Source of the DNA: a virus
Virus record (IMG/VR): IMGVR_UViG_3300049032_000060
Location: 1 to 29,895 of that record
Strand: one strand, 5' to 3'
DNA length: 29,895 bases
The stretch's first letter is position 1. Each line of letters opens with the position of its first letter. Shown piece by piece: positions 4,111 through 16,847 of the stretch. Both the position numbers and the translations under genes were made by a program. The notes under the pieces are model-generated. The model did not search any database. It had not been told where the DNA came from and worked only from the letters and a program-made list of their open reading frames with translations.

Positions 4111-4332
4111 ATGCCCGCCCGGCCCACTCCAGGCGCAGGCACCGCCGCCTGCTTCGGCACGCGCTGCAGCAGGCACCACCTCTGCGCGCACTACCACGGC
4201 GTCGAGACACCGGACCGGCGCCGCTTCATCGGCACCTGCAGAACACCAGCCGGCGCCTATCCGCTGTTCGAGCCGCTGCAGGCCGTCCCGGCGGCATCGG
4301 TCGTCGATGGGGAAGGGGACACGTGTGATTGA
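4111..4332 (+). CDS. Small Cys/His-rich protein, 73 aa
   Basis: Starts 4 nt after the preceding stop. Residues about 14-29 contain C-x4-C-x5-C with interspersed His (CFGTRC, SRHHLC, AHYH), a possible small zinc-binding knuckle. Short Cys-rich proteins of this kind are frequent in early regions of proteobacterial phages and lack a defined role. Composition is normal, but the ribosome site is weak (AGGGAT about 8 nt upstream). Not recognised further. Confidence 0.55.
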   Translation: MPARPTPGAGTAACFGTRCSRHHLCAHYHGVETPDRRRFIGTCRTPAGAYPLFEPLQAVPAASVVDGEGDTCD

Positions 4333-4579
4333 ACGGCAAGCCCGCGGCTCAGGGCCGCAACCCCTGGCCATCCGGCGTTCCCAGCTCGGCCACGTCTCGA
4401 TGCGCCTGCTGAACATCGTCAGCCGACCTGGTGGCGCAACCGGCGGCGAGGCCGAGGCCTGGGAGCGCGGGGAGGCCGAGGCGGCTGATGAGGCGCCTGC
4501 GGCTGCGGCTGAGCTGGCTGTGCCGGAGAGTTTCGCGGCTCAGTGGCGGCGGCTGCGTGGTGAGGAATCGGCGGCATGA
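4325..4579 (+). CDS. Hypothetical protein, about 84 aa
   Basis: GTG at 4325 is preferred (AGGGG at 4314-4318, 6 nt upstream, start overlapping the preceding stop); ATG at 4307 in the same frame is the alternative and adds 6 residues. The N-terminal half is basic (RQARGSG, RRSQLGHVSMRLLNIVSR), the C-terminal half Ala/Glu-rich and ends in AAQWRRLRGEESAA. It lies directly before the helicase, where phages often encode an initiator or helicase-loading partner, but no motif supports that. Unrecognised. The 61 bp to the helicase start hold no clear signal. Confidence 0.5.
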   Translation: MIERQARGSGPQPLAIRRSQLGHVSMRLLNIVSRPGGATGGEAEAWERGEAEAADEAPAAAAELAVPESFAAQWRRLRGEESAA

Positions 4580-4640
4580 ACCTGGGGGCAGCGTGAATGC
4601 CGGGATCGCTCTCGCTGGTCCCATCCCACCAAGGTCCCGC

Positions 4641-6137
4641 ATGAACACCCGGGACGATGATGTCGCGCGCCTGCGCGTGCCGCCGCACTCCGAAGAGGCA
4701 GAGCAGAGCGTGCTCGGTGCGCTGCTGCTGGACAACGCCGCCATGGGCCGCGTGTCGGACCTGCTGCGCGCCGACGACTTCTACCGCCACCAGCACGCGA
4801 CCATCTACGCCGCGATCAGCACGATGCTCGATGAGCACCAGGTGGTCGACATCGTCACGCTGCACGAGAAGCTCGACGCCGCCGGCCAGGCAACGCACTG
4901 CGGCGGCATGGCCTACCTGAACTCGCTGGCCCAGAGCGTGCCCAGCGCGGCCAGCATCCGCCAGTACGCCGAGATCGTGCGCAGCCGCGCCATCCTGCGC
5001 CGCGTGATCTCGATGACCGACGAGATCGCCACGATGGCGTTCAACGGCACCAGCGTGCCCGTCGAGACGTTGCTGTCGGACGTCGAAGAGAAGTTTGCCG
5101 AGCTGCAGCGCGAGCAGCAGCGCAAGATCCCGGACCGCCGCGTGCCCCTGCTGCGCCTGGATGCGCTGCAGGAGGCCTCGCACAGCGTGCGGTGGCTGAT
5201 CAAGCACGTCGTGCCGGCCGAATCGCTCGGCATGCTGTTCGGTGGCTCCGGCACGTTCAAGAGCTTCATCGCCCTGGACGCAGGCCTGCACGTGGCGCAC
5301 GGGCTGCCGTGGCTCGGCCGGCGCACGAACAAGGGCAGCGTGATGTACATCGCCGCCGAGGGCGGCACCGGCCTATGGCCGCGCATCGACGCGTGGCACC
5401 GCGCGCGCAACTTGCGCTGGACCGGCTTGCCGTTCACGGTGGTGCCGGTGTCCGTGGATCTCGGCACCGAGGCCTGGCGCGTGGTCGACGCAGCGCAGGC
5501 CATCGGTCAGACCCCCTCGCTGGTGATCATCGACACGCTGTCGCAGACCTTCAGCGGCGAAGAGAACAGCGCGGCCGAGATGGCGGCCTACCTGCGCCAA
5601 CTCGGCGCCCGCTTCCGTGCCCTGTGGAACTGCGCCGTGCTGGTGATCCACCACAGCGGCCACCTGGCCACGGAGCGCCCGCGCGGCTCCAGCGTCATCC
5701 GCGGCAACGTGGACTTCCTGATGGGGGTGTTCCGCGACGAGAAGGAAATGCTCGCCACCGTCAGCTGCAGCAAGCAGAAGGACGGCGACACGTTCGACGA
5801 CGTGACGTTCAGCCTCAGCAAGTTCAGGCTGGGCACGGACGAAGACGGCGACGAGGTGACATCGCTCGTGGCGCGTCACCTGACCAGCGCCGAAGAGGTC
5901 GAGGAAGCCATGCGCGTCGAGGCCAAGGCCGGCCGCGTGGGCAAGAACCAGCTGCTGCTGAGCCTCGTGCAGAACGGCATGCGCGAGTCCGACCTGCGCA
6001 AGGTCTTCGCCGACGAGTGCGGCATCGAGAACCCCGAAAGCCGCAAGCGCGTGTTCAACCGTGCGAAGGCATGGGCCATGCAACACGGCTACATCGAGGT
6101 CGCCGCGGGCATCGTCATAACCCTCAAAAAGGACTGA
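4641..6137 (+). CDS. DnaB-type helicase with RecA/RepA-like ATPase core
   Basis: 498 aa from ATG 4641 (AAGG 6 nt upstream; GTG 4593 in frame is less likely because DnaB-family proteins begin shortly before the PPHSxEAEQSVLGALLLD motif, here residues 14-31). Residues about 13-120 are the DnaB N-terminal domain. The ATPase follows: Walker A GGSGTFKS at 201-208, Walker B VIID with D298, and a sensor-like VIHHSGH with H337/H338. The core resembles AAA_25/RepA-type rather than a standard DnaB C-domain, and a winged-helix-like C-terminus follows (residues about 430-498). Expected to be the replicative helicase that unwinds phage DNA at the origin. The downstream GGGACA array is a candidate origin. 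No primase gene is visible. Confidence 0.9.
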   Translation: MNTRDDDVARLRVPPHSEEAEQSVLGALLLDNAAMGRVSDLLRADDFYRHQHATIYAAISTMLDEHQVVDIVTLHEKLDAAGQATHCGGMAYLNSLAQSVPSAASIRQYAEIVRSRAILRRVISMTDEIATMAFNGTSVPVETLLSDVEEKFAELQREQQRKIPDRRVPLLRLDALQEASHSVRWLIKHVVPAESLGMLFGGSGTFKSFIALDAGLHVAHGLPWLGRRTNKGSVMYIAAEGGTGLWPRIDAWHRARNLRWTGLPFTVVPVSVDLGTEAWRVVDAAQAIGQTPSLVIIDTLSQTFSGEENSAAEMAAYLRQLGARFRALWNCAVLVIHHSGHLATERPRGSSVIRGNVDFLMGVFRDEKEMLATVSCSKQKDGDTFDDVTFSLSKFRLGTDEDGDEVTSLVARHLTSAEEVEEAMRVEAKAGRVGKNQLLLSLVQNGMRESDLRKVFADECGIENPESRKRVFNRAKAWAMQHGYIEVAAGIVITLKKD

Positions 6138-6139
6138 TC

Positions 6140-6811
6140 ATGGCGGGACAAGAAATCGCGGAATCGGGACAAAAAACCGGGACAAACAGCCGGGACAACC
6201 TCGTGCGCGCGCGCCCAGACTCCGTCTGGGATGTCCCGGTTGTCCCGGGGGGACAAAACCGGGAGGGACAAAGCGGGACAGTGGGACAAGCGGGACAGGG
6301 ACAGGACTCCGCTGGCGCTGCGTCCATCCCAGTCCCTTTCGCGGGTGGGACAAAGAAGCTCATCCTTCCGTACCCCATCAGCGCTAACCGCTACTGGCAG
6401 AGCTTCGTGCCGCCGGGTGCACGCCGGGCCTTCGTGCACCTCAGCACCGAGGCGAAGGCATACAAGCGCTCGGTGGCCAAGATCTGCGCCGGCGTGGGCA
6501 TCACCGAGCCCATCCGTGGCCGCGTCGCCGTCACGGTGCAGCTGTACCCGCACCGGCCGCTCGACTTCAAGACCCGTCAGCGAAAGCTCGGCGCGTCGTG
6601 GGATGACAGCGTGCAGTGCCTCGACCTCGACAACGCCAACAAGGTGCTGCTCGACAGCCTCAAGGGCTTCCTGTTCGAGGACGACGCATGGGTGCGCCGC
6701 ATCTTGTCGGAGCGCATGGAGCCGGACGAGGAGGGTGCACGCGTCGTCATCACCGTCGAGCAGCTGGCGGTGGAGCGTCCGCAGCTTGACCTGCTCGGGG
6801 CCGCCGCATGA
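6140..6811 (+). CDS. rusA: RusA-family Holliday junction endonuclease
   Basis: 223 aa from ATG 6140 (AAGGA about 7 nt upstream), 2 nt after the helicase stop. The RusA fold starts at about residue 75: LPYPISANRYW (76-86), central VTVQLYP, then the catalytic acidic motif LDLDNANKVLLD with D162 and D164, and EDD with D181/D182. RusA proteins cut Holliday junctions as dimers during recombination and before packaging. Odd: about 70 extra N-terminal residues, Gly/Gln/Asp-rich, encoded entirely by the GGGACA repeat array. No alternative in-frame ATG lies between 6140 and the RusA core, so the extension is either a translated by-product of a DNA-level element or a real but disordered tail. ATGA overlap with the next gene. 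Confidence 0.9.
   Translation: MAGQEIAESGQKTGTNSRDNLVRARPDSVWDVPVVPGGQNREGQSGTVGQAGQGQDSAGAASIPVPFAGGTKKLILPYPISANRYWQSFVPPGARRAFVHLSTEAKAYKRSVAKICAGVGITEPIRGRVAVTVQLYPHRPLDFKTRQRKLGASWDDSVQCLDLDNANKVLLDSLKGFLFEDDAWVRRILSERMEPDEEGARVVITVEQLAVERPQLDLLGAAA
6145..6352. repeat. GGGACA repeat array (candidate origin iterons)
   Basis: Eleven direct copies of GGGACA start at 6145, 6166, 6179, 6192, 6250, 6265, 6275, 6283, 6292, 6298 and 6347; two inverted copies (TGTCCC) start at 6232 and 6241. Many extend to CGGGACAA. The copies fall in all three reading frames relative to the RusA ORF, so protein constraint does not explain them. Irregular spacing (6-21 bp inside clusters) excludes a simple tandem repeat or a CRISPR. 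Position directly after the helicase and inside the 5' part of the next gene parallels the lambda origin, which lies inside gene O. An alternative is a regulatory or host-factor binding array. Confidence 0.75.
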
Positions 6812-7203
6812 ACAGCATCGCCATTCGCTCAGGCGTGAATCGCGCCGACATCCACCTGGCGGCCAAGGCGATGCTCTTCGCGCTCGAAACCAGCCTGCCG
6901 ACGTCGGCACGGCTGGACCGCCTTGCGCGACTCCTCGAGGCCTTCGGCGATCCCGCGCCCAGCCAACTGCTGTCACCCGGGGGTGCAGCCGAGGTGCTGC
7001 TGCGCCACATGGTGGCCGTCGTGCAGCTGCCAGCGGAGACCTCCCAACGGCTGCACACCGCTGACACCCGTGGCCTTGATGCGGTGCGCGCCTTCCTCCG
7101 TGGACGCCTGCCGGTCAAGGTCTTCACGGACGTCGGCGCTGCCCGTCTCTACGTCGTCGTGCTGTGCCTGGCCAGGCTGGGCGACGGCGCGTCCATCCAC
7201 TGA
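6808..7203 (+). CDS. Hypothetical protein, 131 aa
   Basis: ATGA overlap with rusA indicates translational coupling. The protein is Leu/Ala-rich and mainly helical (DIHLAAKAMLFALETSL, ARLDRLARLLEAFGD, AAEVLLRHMVAVVQL), with a C-terminal hydrophobic strand or helix ARLYVVVLCLARL. No catalytic or DNA-binding motif is recognisable. Its place at the end of the replication operon, before the late region, is where an antiterminator or late regulator could be encoded, but no sequence feature supports that. Confidence 0.6.
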   Translation: MNSIAIRSGVNRADIHLAAKAMLFALETSLPTSARLDRLARLLEAFGDPAPSQLLSPGGAAEVLLRHMVAVVQLPAETSQRLHTADTRGLDAVRAFLRGRLPVKVFTDVGAARLYVVVLCLARLGDGASIH

Positions 7204-8429: not shown

Positions 8430-8894
8430 ATGGAATGCGGCCTCCCTCAGAAGCAGATTGCCGAACACCTGGGCATCAAGCAGCCCCAGGTTTCGAAGCT
8501 GATCGAGCGTGGCATGCCGACGGCATCGCTGGAGGCTGCAACCGCGTGGCACAAGGCCAACGTCCGCCCACGCGTGAAGCCGCAGGCCCGGCAGGCCCAA
8601 GCCGCGGCAAAGCGCGCCGCACCTGACCCGTACCAGGTCGCGCGCACCCAGCGCGAGCAGATCGACGTCGAGACGGCCCGGCTGGCGCTGCTGGAGCGCC
8701 GGAAGGTGCTGGTGCATCGCGATACGGTCCGCGCTGAGCTGGCCCGCCACCTGTCCACGCTGCGCGAGGCGCTGCTGCAGCTTCCAGTGCGCCTGCAGTC
8801 GGTCCTGGCGCAGGAGCAGGACGAGGCCAAGGTGCACGACCTGCTGCAGGACGAGGTGGACCTGCTGCTGGAACGCATCAGCGGGGTTCTGTGA
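8430..8894 (+). CDS. Terminase small subunit (Nu1-like)
   Basis: 154 aa; an in-frame TGA at 8406 limits the start to ATG 8430, although the ribosome site is weak. Residues 5-50 form a winged-HTH DNA-binding domain: LPQKQIAEHLGIKQPQVSKLIERGM then a helix TASLEAATAWHKANV. The remainder is a long, charged helix region (ARTQREQIDVETARLALLERRKVL, ELARHLSTLREALLQLP) typical of Nu1/DUF1441-type small terminases, which bind the packaging site as oligomers and recruit the large subunit. The stop overlaps the large-subunit start by one base, as expected for the pair. Confidence 0.85.
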   Translation: MECGLPQKQIAEHLGIKQPQVSKLIERGMPTASLEAATAWHKANVRPRVKPQARQAQAAAKRAAPDPYQVARTQREQIDVETARLALLERRKVLVHRDTVRAELARHLSTLREALLQLPVRLQSVLAQEQDEAKVHDLLQDEVDLLLERISGVL

Positions 8895-10903
8895 TGCAGG
8901 CCGACGCCGACGTCGTCATCACCTTCGAGGCCGACTCGCGCGCTCTGGCCGCCGAACTGCTGCGCGAGTTCATGACGCCGCCGCCGCGGCTCACCGTCAC
9001 GGCCTGGGCCGTGCAGAACCGGTTTCTCGGGCCGAGCGAGAGCGCGGAGCCAGGCCAATACCGCATCGATCGCACGCCCTACGCGCAGGAGCCGCAGGAC
9101 TGCATGAGCCCGCGCAGCACCGTCGAGGAGGTGGTGCTGATGTGGGCGGCGCAGACCTCGAAAACCACCGTCTTGCTGAACTGCCTGGGCGCCACGATCG
9201 GCACGAACCCGGGCCCGGTGATGATCGTGTGGCCCACGAACACGGTGGCCAAGCGCAACAGCAGGCAGCGCATTGCGCCCCTGCTCACCGAGAGCCCGCA
9301 GCTGGCCGAGAAGGTGGCGTCGAACCGCTCGCGCGACAAGGCAAACACCACGCTGCTGAAGGAGTTCGACGGCGGCATCCTGGTGATCGCCGGCGCGAAC
9401 AGCGCGGCAGACCTGCGCTCGACGCCGGTGCGAGACCTCTACCTCGACGAGATCGACAACTTCCCGCTGGACGTCGACGGGGAAGGCGACCCCGGCAAGC
9501 TGGCCGAGGCGAGACAGACCACCTTCGCCCGAAAGAAGCGGCTGAAGAGCTCGACCCCGACGACGAAGGACTTCAGCCGGATCGAGGCCGCCTACGAGGC
9601 CTCCGACAAGTGCCGGTACCACGTCGCGTGCCCTCACTGCGGCACGTACCAGCCGCTGGAGTTCGGCGCCGACCAGCACCACGGCCTGAAGTGGGACAAG
9701 GACGCCGCCGGCGCGCCGGTGCCCAGCAGCGTGCGCTACGTGTGCGCCGCCAGCGGCTGCGAGATCCGCGAGCACCACAAGCGCGCCATGCTGGCCGGGG
9801 GCGTGTGGGTCGCGGAGAAGCCAGGCGCACGCGGCGGCAAGGTGCGCGGCTTCCACCTCAACGGCCTGTATTCGCCGCTGGGCTGGCTGTCCTGGCAGCA
9901 GATCGCGCAGGAGTGGTACGAGGCGATGCAGGCCGTGGCCAAGGGCGACGTGTCGCTGCTGCGCGTCTTCGTGAACACGCGCCTGGCCGAGACCTTCGAA
10001 GAGCAGGGCGACCGCGCCGATCAGCACGCGCTGCGCAAGCGCGCCGGCGACTGGCCGCTGCGCGTCGTCATCGTCGGCTGCGTCCTCACGCTGGGCGTCG
10101 ACGTGCAGCGCGATCGCATCGAGGCCCGCCTGTACAGCTGGGCGCGCGGCATGGAGCGCCAGCTGGTGGACCGCGCCGTGTTCTACGGCGATCCGACGCG
10201 GCCGGAGAGCGAGAAGGGCAGCGCCTGGGCTCAGCTCACGGAGTACCGCCGCACGCCGGTGCACAACTCCGCCGGCGTGGCGGTGCCGCTGCTGGCCACG
10301 ATGGTCGACTCGTCGGACGGTCACTCGACGCAGGCGGTCTACGTCTACTGCCGCGAGCACCTGGCCGAGAACGTGCACGCGATCAAGGGAGCCAGCACCA
10401 CGGGCAAGCCGATCATCGGCAAGCCGAAGGAACAGCTCGTGAACTGGCGGGGCCAGCAGATCGCGAAAGGCGTGAAGCTGTGGCCCATCGGCACCGACAC
10501 CGCGAAGGCCGAGATTTACGGCCGGCTGCGCGTCGTCGCGCCAGGTCCGGGCTACGTGCACCTCTCGAAGCACCTGCCGGCCGACGAGTTCGAGCAGATC
10601 ACGTCCGAGCGCCTGGTGACGCGCTACGTCAAGGGCCGGCCACGGCTGGAGTGGATCCTGCCGCCCGGCAAGCGGAACGAGGGCCTCGACTGCGCGGTGT
10701 ACGCGCTGGCCGGCGCGCACTGGATCGGCATCGACCGATGGCGCGATGGCGACTGGGAGCGGCGCGAGGCGCTCGTGCGGCCGGCGCGCGCTCCCGAGCC
10801 TGACCCGCAGGAGAAGCCGCGCGCCCACCTGGTAGCGGAGGGGCCGAAGACGAAGATCAGCGGGCTCAGCAGCATGGCGCGGTTCGCCCGCACGGGGCGG
10901 TGA
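8894..10903 (+). CDS. Terminase large subunit, GpA family
   Basis: 669 aa from ATG 8894, which overlaps the small-subunit TGA. ATPase: Walker A-like Q87-T-S-K90-T-T (the deviant form seen in lambda gpA) and Walker B DLYLDEID with D185-E186. A four-Cys zinc site (C246-x2-C249, C284-x4-C289) follows, as in the GpA family. The C-terminal nuclease region has LGVDVQRDRIEARLYSW, MVDSSDGHSTQAVY and LDCAVYALA, supplying the metal-binding Asp residues. It pumps DNA into the prohead and cuts concatemers, most likely at cos as GpA-type enzymes do. Length is close to lambda gpA (641 aa). High confidence. Confidence 0.96.
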   Translation: MQADADVVITFEADSRALAAELLREFMTPPPRLTVTAWAVQNRFLGPSESAEPGQYRIDRTPYAQEPQDCMSPRSTVEEVVLMWAAQTSKTTVLLNCLGATIGTNPGPVMIVWPTNTVAKRNSRQRIAPLLTESPQLAEKVASNRSRDKANTTLLKEFDGGILVIAGANSAADLRSTPVRDLYLDEIDNFPLDVDGEGDPGKLAEARQTTFARKKRLKSSTPTTKDFSRIEAAYEASDKCRYHVACPHCGTYQPLEFGADQHHGLKWDKDAAGAPVPSSVRYVCAASGCEIREHHKRAMLAGGVWVAEKPGARGGKVRGFHLNGLYSPLGWLSWQQIAQEWYEAMQAVAKGDVSLLRVFVNTRLAETFEEQGDRADQHALRKRAGDWPLRVVIVGCVLTLGVDVQRDRIEARLYSWARGMERQLVDRAVFYGDPTRPESEKGSAWAQLTEYRRTPVHNSAGVAVPLLATMVDSSDGHSTQAVYVYCREHLAENVHAIKGASTTGKPIIGKPKEQLVNWRGQQIAKGVKLWPIGTDTAKAEIYGRLRVVAPGPGYVHLSKHLPADEFEQITSERLVTRYVKGRPRLEWILPPGKRNEGLDCAVYALAGAHWIGIDRWRDGDWERREALVRPARAPEPDPQEKPRAHLVAEGPKTKISGLSSMARFARTGR

Positions 10904-15468: not shown

Positions 15469-15795
15469 ATGGCCACGAAGAAGCTGAACATGATCGCGCT
15501 GATCGCCCTGACGACGATCCGCCACAGTGGCGAAGTCTTCGAAGAAGGCGACGAGCTGTCCGTCGACGAGAAGGCGGCCGAGCAGCTGGTCGCCTCAGGC
15601 TCTGCTGCCACGCCGAAGGTCGCCGCTGCGCAGGAAGCGGCTGGCAAGAAAGCCGCCGCCGCGAAGGCTGCCCGCGAGAAGGCCGATGCTGCTGCCGCCG
15701 CCGCGCGGCAGGCCGAAGCTGATGCCGCGGCGCAGGCCCAGGCAGAAGCCGAAGCCGCAGCGGCCTTGGCCGCCGGCAACAAGCCCAAGACCTGA
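15469..15795 (+). CDS. Small head-region protein with Ala/Lys tail, 108 aa (paralog of 16608 gene)
   Basis: ATG 15469 with AGGAG upstream. Residues about 18-45 (RHSGEVFEEGDELSVDEKAAEQLVASG) form a compact beta-like unit. About 60 residues of Ala/Lys/Glu/Gln-rich helix follow. The same unit recurs in the protein at 16608 (HNGVIVRPGEILHVSEKVAKVLLASS). Proteins of this type are found between capsid and neck genes in related phages without a known role. Predicted to be a minor head or assembly protein; function unknown. Confidence 0.7.
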   Translation: MATKKLNMIALIALTTIRHSGEVFEEGDELSVDEKAAEQLVASGSAATPKVAAAQEAAGKKAAAAKAAREKADAAAAAARQAEADAAAQAQAEAEAAAALAAGNKPKT

Positions 15796-16607: not shown

Positions 16608-16847
16608 ATGGCCACCATCCTGAACCCCGCGACGAAGTTCTCTCCCGTCGCAATCACCGCCAAGCAGCCGGTCGCCCACAACGGCGTGATCGTGCGGCCC
16701 GGCGAGATCCTTCACGTCTCCGAGAAGGTCGCGAAGGTCCTGCTGGCCAGCAGCGAGTCCTGGGGGCCCGTCGAGAAGGAAGCCCCCGCAGCCCCGGCTG
16801 CCGCCGCCGCAACCGACGCGGCCGCCGCCAAGAAGCCCGCGGCCTGA
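16608..16847 (+). CDS. Small protein with Ala-rich tail, 79 aa (paralog of 15469 gene)
   Basis: ATG 16608 with CGGAG 9 nt upstream. Core VAHNGVIVRPGEILHVSEKV and AKVLLASSESW align with the 15469 product: conserved H, G, G, L, V, E-K, A, L and A-S positions. The tail is Ala/Pro/Lys-rich, ending AAAKKPAA, again like its paralog. It lies between the tail terminator and the tube gene. Probably a structural accessory protein; function unknown. Confidence 0.65.
   Translation: MATILNPATKFSPVAITAKQPVAHNGVIVRPGEILHVSEKVAKVLLASSESWGPVEKEAPAAPAAAAATDAAAAKKPAA

Follow-up and report, generated by a model that had tools for sequence, protein, structure and literature searches.

The locus raises the question of what a dense run of one hexamer, GGGACA, is doing directly after a phage helicase gene and within the start of a rusA reading frame. 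The window analysed here is an entire virus record of 29,895 bases. The original prediction took the array for a candidate replication origin, and this is still the function best supported by the sequence analysis. We conclude that the array is very probably the iteron origin of the phage, located 3' of its own initiator gene and bound by the C-terminal domain of the helicase. The direct computations cover the array itself, its constant position, the concerted changes of its motif and the covariation of motif and helicase.

The GGGACA array and the rusA reading frame

The window contains 20 exact copies of GGGACA. Thirteen of them (11 forward and two inverted, at 6232 and 6241) lie at positions 6145 to 6352, and the array starts 8 nt past the stop codon of the helicase gene (4641 to 6137, + strand). 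The predicted 13-copy array directly after the helicase gene was thus confirmed, and the proposed genome-wide count came out in its favor with only seven copies in the other 29.7 kb. Dinucleotide-preserving shuffling of the window, repeated 300 times, never put more than four GGGACA into any 208-bp stretch, compared to 13 in the real sequence. Among unrelated hexamers of the real window, the densest attains six copies in a stretch of that length.

The array has an ordered layout. It opens with a left block of four direct iterons on the + strand (6145 to 6197; copies at 6145, 6166, 6179 and 6192), followed by a CTCGTGCGCGCGCGC element (6200 to 6214, + strand), which array alignments show to be kept as CTCGCGCGCGC in many relatives. 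Next are a central hairpin, CCCAGAC-TCC-GTCTGGG (6214 to 6230, + strand), and the two inverted iterons (TGTCCCGGTTGTCCC, 6232 to 6246, - strand). The right block has six direct iterons (6250 to 6303, + strand; copies at 6250, 6265, 6275, 6283, 6292 and 6298), and an outlying thirteenth iteron is found at 6347 to 6352 (+ strand). Alignment of the arrays gives the order left direct iterons, CTCGCGCGCGC tract, short hairpin, inverted iterons and right block. Hairpin stems of at least 5 pairs occur in 18 of the 42 arrays that carry a CGCGC element before the inverted iteron, and they have 14 different sequences; the hairpin sequence varies and its pairing is often retained. Other lineages have GCATAAGGGAAT at the hairpin position instead. 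An AT-rich unwinding element beside the iterons is typical of iteron origins, although it is not universal. No AT-rich melting region was found at the array, where 1-kb windows have about 65% GC and the center is the CG tract and hairpin. GC skew showed no clear switch at the array and was uninformative, and an Rfam search gave no match. Other imperfect tandem repeats in the window are found at 15680-15762 (24-30 bp units) and 16782-16829 (21 bp units), with periods mostly compatible with coding.

The rusA ORF (6140 to 6811, + strand) traverses the array with its first 72 or so codons, and the RusA domain proper starts near 6371 (Pfam RusA, residues 78-207). With a plausible ribosome site ahead of the ATG at 6140, the array could in principle owe its existence to selection on protein, as a repetitive N-terminus of RusA or as some other coding repeat. 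However, the copies are present on both strands and in all three reading frames of rusA (3, 1 and 9 copies). When residues 1-72 were re-coded with the codons of the phage itself, the mean was 0.32 GGGACA and the maximum 4, against 13 observed. These re-codings and the shuffles together rule out chance or composition as the source of the array. The closest cousin of the window (locus L007, helicase 93% identical) differs from it by 8 nt in the array region, as counted from the alignment. These differences affect six codons, five of them non-synonymously, but all 13 GGGACA are intact; the remainder of rusA is far more diverged. The predicted selection on DNA rather than on protein is borne out by these results, including the suggested comparison of a conserved array with a drifting protein.

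Only in the window and L007 is the whole array inside the rusA ORF. In most relatives that have rusA after the array (e.g., L071, L300, L008 and L011), the gene starts past it and contains no iteron, and other relatives carry different genes there. The claim that an N-terminal extension of RusA coincides with the array holds in the window, where the Pfam domain begins at residue 78, and fails as a general feature of RusA. Judged from these alignments, the extension reflects a reading frame that runs on through the array in the window phage and its cousin alone. Because relatives keep the array 3' of the helicase while the downstream genes change, and because rusA usually begins after it, the array is by this comparison a DNA element and not a RusA feature. 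The comparison with relatives refutes a coding repeat, and we give that explanation hardly any chance.

Position of the array in relatives

Relatives were selected independently of the motif by protein search and profile search with the helicase, which gave 73 non-redundant loci (a scan of a genome collection for helicase relatives gave 6 loci only). An array was scored when a hexamer occurred at least 7 times between -120 and +480 of the helicase stop. By this hexamer criterion 61 of the 73 loci have an array and 12 have none. Among control windows of the same size placed inside the helicase gene, 10 of 122 reach the threshold, with a maximum of 8 copies. The median distance from the helicase stop to the first iteron is 6 nt (middle half -1 to +17; 91 loci). 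In L024 and L027 about 240 bp of unrelated sequence, apparently a small gene, separates the stop from the array, unlike nearly all other loci.

Viral contigs were also scanned by DNA alone for three spaced CGGGACA or CGTGACA. With the protein-found loci included, the combined set has 126 array loci of at least 7 copies; in 63 of them the array adjoins the 3' end of an AAA_25-type helicase gene, and in no case the 5' end. Several of the remaining arrays are 3' of other replication proteins (D5_N/DUF5906 primase-helicases, a VapE-like protein and Zn-ribbon primases). Two or more copies on each strand were present at 38 of 53 CGGGACA loci versus 0 of 27 loci for a scrambled motif of equal composition. 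The scrambled-motif repeats are one-stranded with periods mostly divisible by three, as for coding repeats.

The helicase is the gene that accompanies the array. It was found in 91 of 94 array-bearing loci; the window's other upstream ORFs (including 2807 and 4307/4325) have relatives in 0-3 and the small terminase in 3 of the 94, counts that include some loci whose flanking DNA is too short to show distant genes. Among 40 loci with wide flanks the numbers are 39 for the helicase, 0-1 for the upstream ORFs and 3 for the small terminase. The small upstream ORFs and the small terminase were rejected as binders, not being conserved with the array. The 4325 and 2807 products had been named in the original prediction as candidate initiators, and their absence from nearly all array-bearing relatives speaks against both. 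Direct repeats are likewise a mark of parS and of some pac/cos sites, and the window has small and large terminase genes at 8430-10903. The array might then be a partition (centromere) or packaging-start site to which the small terminase or a partition protein binds, and its place beside the helicase a matter of module order only. Against this, the array is 2.1 kb from terS, it remains beside the helicase through changes in the other genes, small-terminase relatives are as rare as stated above, and the motif covaries with the helicase (below). We regard a partition or packaging site as very unlikely.

The layout recurs in circular plasmids with phage genes: pMRAD08 (21 kb) and Caenibius p1 (38 kb), for example, each carry an array 3' of the helicase. 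In pMRAD08 no other initiator is listed in the gene table, which is incomplete. Among the annotated phage and plasmid records with AAA_25 helicases that were examined, roughly half show no clear array. Many AAA_25 helicases, though not all, are followed by an array.

Iterons frequently serve in autoregulation as well, and this array lies between the replication genes and later genes. A helicase-bound array could accordingly be an operator that represses the helicase operon or the downstream genes and not a start of replication. The array is however 3' of the helicase gene and not at its promoter, and a search of 4200-7000, which is a weak test, found no sigma-70-like promoter. At least 10 sites plus a hairpin exceed the needs of an operator, and the circular phage-plasmids share the layout. 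An operator function alone is considered unlikely, and we continue with the array as a putative origin.

The helicase C-terminal domain and the repeat classes

The helicase (498 aa), the proposed initiator, consists of a DnaB N-terminal domain (Pfam, residues 14-114; 4.4e-34, 117 bits against a cut-off of 23), an AAA_25 motor (RepA-like, RecA-fold; residues 171-341; 4.8e-34, 118 bits against a cut-off of 27) and a C-terminal putative DNA-reading domain. Its relatives in the PDB are DnaB and RSF1010 RepA (1g8y). The motor is AAA_25; the DnaB_C motor domain is absent, and the protein missed every NCBIfam cut-off for full-length DnaB. In some relatives the AAA_25 helicase has a PrimPol or Toprim domain in place of the DnaB N-terminal domain.

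The C-terminal domain (residues 414-498; 5880 to 6134, + strand) comprises about 75 residues, and the helix/hairpin pattern of the alignment suggests a winged helix-turn-helix whose last half resembles a recognition helix followed by a wing. Pfam winged-helix matches are weak (SelB-wing_2, 0.017; MCM8 WHD, 0.076), and a PDB sequence search with a profile of the domain gave no meaningful match. As predicted from the alignment, the domain is probably a winged helix. Its putative recognition helix is ESRKRVFN (residues 466-473; 6036 to 6059, + strand), with the codon of R470 at 6048-6050.

The repeat varies by lineage (CGGGACA, CGTGACA, CCGGACA and CGGCACA). Copies in any one array are essentially of one kind, i.e., they change in concert, and the spacers and central tract stay alignable between repeat classes. 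Among the scorable loci, 55 have GGGACA and 22 have GTGACA. The column of R470 in the window (domain column 52) is Lys or Arg in 54 of the 55 GGGACA loci and Gln in 21 of the 22 GTGACA loci (Fisher 5.5e-18, 77 loci). In the protein-found subset the split is perfect (34/34 and 16/16). This is by far the best of 397 helicase columns (z about 12), and the next two best, N473 and K469, belong to the same helix. Two loci are exceptions, L216 with Lys beside a GTG repeat and L089 with His beside a GGG repeat; both sit on long branches whose placement in the tree is poor. At the residue-470 position the three CGGCACA loci carry Met or Val, and the CCGGACA class has no single-residue explanation. Locus L356 has a variant repeat, CGGGACG, and His at this position (TRKHAW). 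The N-domain of the helicase had also been put forward as the binder; this found no support, as it is the C-terminal domain that tracks the repeat.

A tree was built from the helicase without its C-terminal domain. The motif changed at least 14 times on this core tree. Supported branches gave nine independent pairs; the residue changes with the motif in eight or nine of these and never against it; with a mixture model and the long branches removed, it follows in 6/6. Since the C-terminal domain and the array adjoin, part of the covariation could come from their joint recombination rather than from substitution. Such exchange would still keep matched pairs, yet it weakens the claim of a residue-level code.

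Named phages and a plasmid show the same correspondence. Directly downstream of their helicases, Rhizobium phages 16-3 and RHph_X2_25 carry 15-16 copies of CGTGACA, and their helix (KRQ) has the Gln that the rule requires; the helicase of phage 16-3 is a PrimPol-AAA_25 protein. A Xanthobacter plasmid has a CGGGACA repeat and Lys at the residue-470 position. Roseobacter phages CRP-823 (L500) and CRP-831 (L501) have helicases that are 88% identical, with a nearly unchanged motor and a more diverged C-terminal region, and their iterons are completely different (ACTACAAA and TGTATAAA). By sequence comparison the two appear to be a natural specificity-switch pair.

GGGACA/GTGACA arrays are also found 3' of phage genes with different C-terminal domains, even of D5, VapE-like and Zn-ribbon primase-helicases. 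Because phages with such unrelated enzymes carry these arrays, a common host factor is conceivable: the iterons would be read by a host protein or by another phage protein, and the residue-470 correlation would reflect shared ancestry or linkage. The independent switches on the helicase-core tree and the clustering of the best three of 397 columns in one helix argue against this. Other helicases use quite different repeats, as expected if each helicase reads its own. In the D5, VapE-like and Zn-ribbon proteins preceding these arrays, the C-terminal domain of the AAA_25 helicases was not found by profile or motif, and for this reason their arrays are probably separate cases. A different reader is quite unlikely in our estimate, and the helicase is retained as the proposed reader.

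Proposed origin and comparison with known systems

We infer physical binding, self-loading, a site of DNA melting and origin activity, as well as the winged-helix fold, from the features described above. Each GGGACA (wider consensus CGGGACA) would be a binding site for the helicase C-terminal domain, which is probably a winged helix. The side chain of residue 470 would read the middle base of the GGG/GTG triplet, with Lys or Arg for GGG and Gln for GTG. Several helicase subunits may assemble on the two iteron blocks. The DNA would be opened between these blocks, at the central CG tract and hairpin, and the RecA-fold motor would then be loaded onto the exposed strands. The DnaB-type N-terminal domain could recruit the host primase.

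The closest layouts are in phage-inducible islands. SaPI and PICI elements, known from staphylococci and from Gram-negative bacteria, encode an initiator helicase that ends in a DNA-binding domain, and the helicase gene is followed immediately by the iteron origin (PMC7581432, PMC6092414). The C-terminal domains of SaPI Rep and of Cch2 (SCCmec) bind iterons directly downstream of their own gene (PMC7581432), and PICI rep-ori segments drive plasmid replication (PMC6092414). The window resembles them in having an iteron array directly 3' of the gene of a proposed initiator helicase. It differs in the helicase, which in SaPI, PICI and Cch2 has DUF927 or D5_N/Primase_Cterm domains and here a RepA/AAA_25 RecA-fold motor with a DnaB N-domain. 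The SaPI/PICI origins have an AT-rich center between two iteron sets, whereas iterons of two orientations surround a CG tract and hairpin here. A PICI is a helper-dependent element with its own gene set, while the window is phage-like and carries its own large terminase gene. The original prediction had pointed to lambda gene O as the analog. Like the lambda origin, the iterons of the window are within an ORF. The lambda iterons are inside the initiator gene itself, however, and here they follow the helicase gene and are outside rusA in relatives; lambda O is not the closest analog, and the layout fits SaPI/PICI rep-ori.

In the alpha protein of satellite phage P4, origin recognition by a winged helix and helicase activity are in one polypeptide (PMC4234260). 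The same joining is proposed here. P4 alpha is of a different helicase class with its own primase, and the second element beside ori1, crr, lies away from its gene; the P4 iterons resemble the GGTGACA form. RSF1010 uses three separate polypeptides for initiation, RepA, RepB and RepC (PMC4234260). It has an iteron origin, and its RepA is the solved relative of the window motor, but reading of the iterons appears to be fused to the RepA-type motor here. The archaeal plasmid pRN1 has an essential origin region directly downstream of its replication gene, and the protein has a C-terminal winged helix (PMC4234260). Both features are similar to those proposed for the window, although the pRN1 origin is a stem-loop without iterons. 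The best-supported reading by analogy is that the window helicase and array would work like SaPI Rep, Cch2, PICI rep-ori and P4 alpha, yet belong to none of these families.

We consider it reasonably probable that these loci represent an undescribed and widespread class of replicon in tailed phages and phage-plasmids. In this class a RepA-type (RecA-fold) helicase would be its own initiator and would read the origin 3' of its gene through a C-terminal recognition helix with a residue-to-base code (Lys/Arg for GGG, Gln for GTG, Met/Val for GGC), and origins and incompatibility groups would be predictable from protein sequence. In the literature covered, which includes few subscription journals, no description was found of the repeat, of the phage 16-3 origin or of AAA_25 phage helicases with 3' iterons; since this coverage is incomplete, the novelty of AAA_25-helicase iteron replicons is provisional. 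The origins of most phages are unknown. If the proposal is correct, finding the origin in a large phage group would only require a look immediately downstream of the helicase gene, and a single helix of the helicase would predict the repeat of that origin. A layout described as unique to phage-inducible islands would extend to ordinary phages with another helicase family, and it would suggest how phages could begin replication without a separate initiator or loader. The natural switch pairs (CRP-823/CRP-831 and the GGGACA/GTGACA pairs) make the specificity code directly testable.

Further repeats were recorded in the course of the comparison. GGGACA/GTGACA arrays 3' of unrelated primase-helicases are located in L130 (4052-4256), L109 (307-571), L063 (5777-5997), L185 (7108-7352) and L264 (5573-5805). 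In a set of annotated phages and plasmids (L364, L368, L369, L370, L494, L495, L500, L501 and L505), AAA_25 helicases with other C-terminal domains are directly followed by other iterons: GGCGGAGAT, CGGTACA, GGGGACA, TGGGACA, GCGCAACA, CTTCCGCA, ACTACAAA, TGTATAAA and GTGCGGCA.
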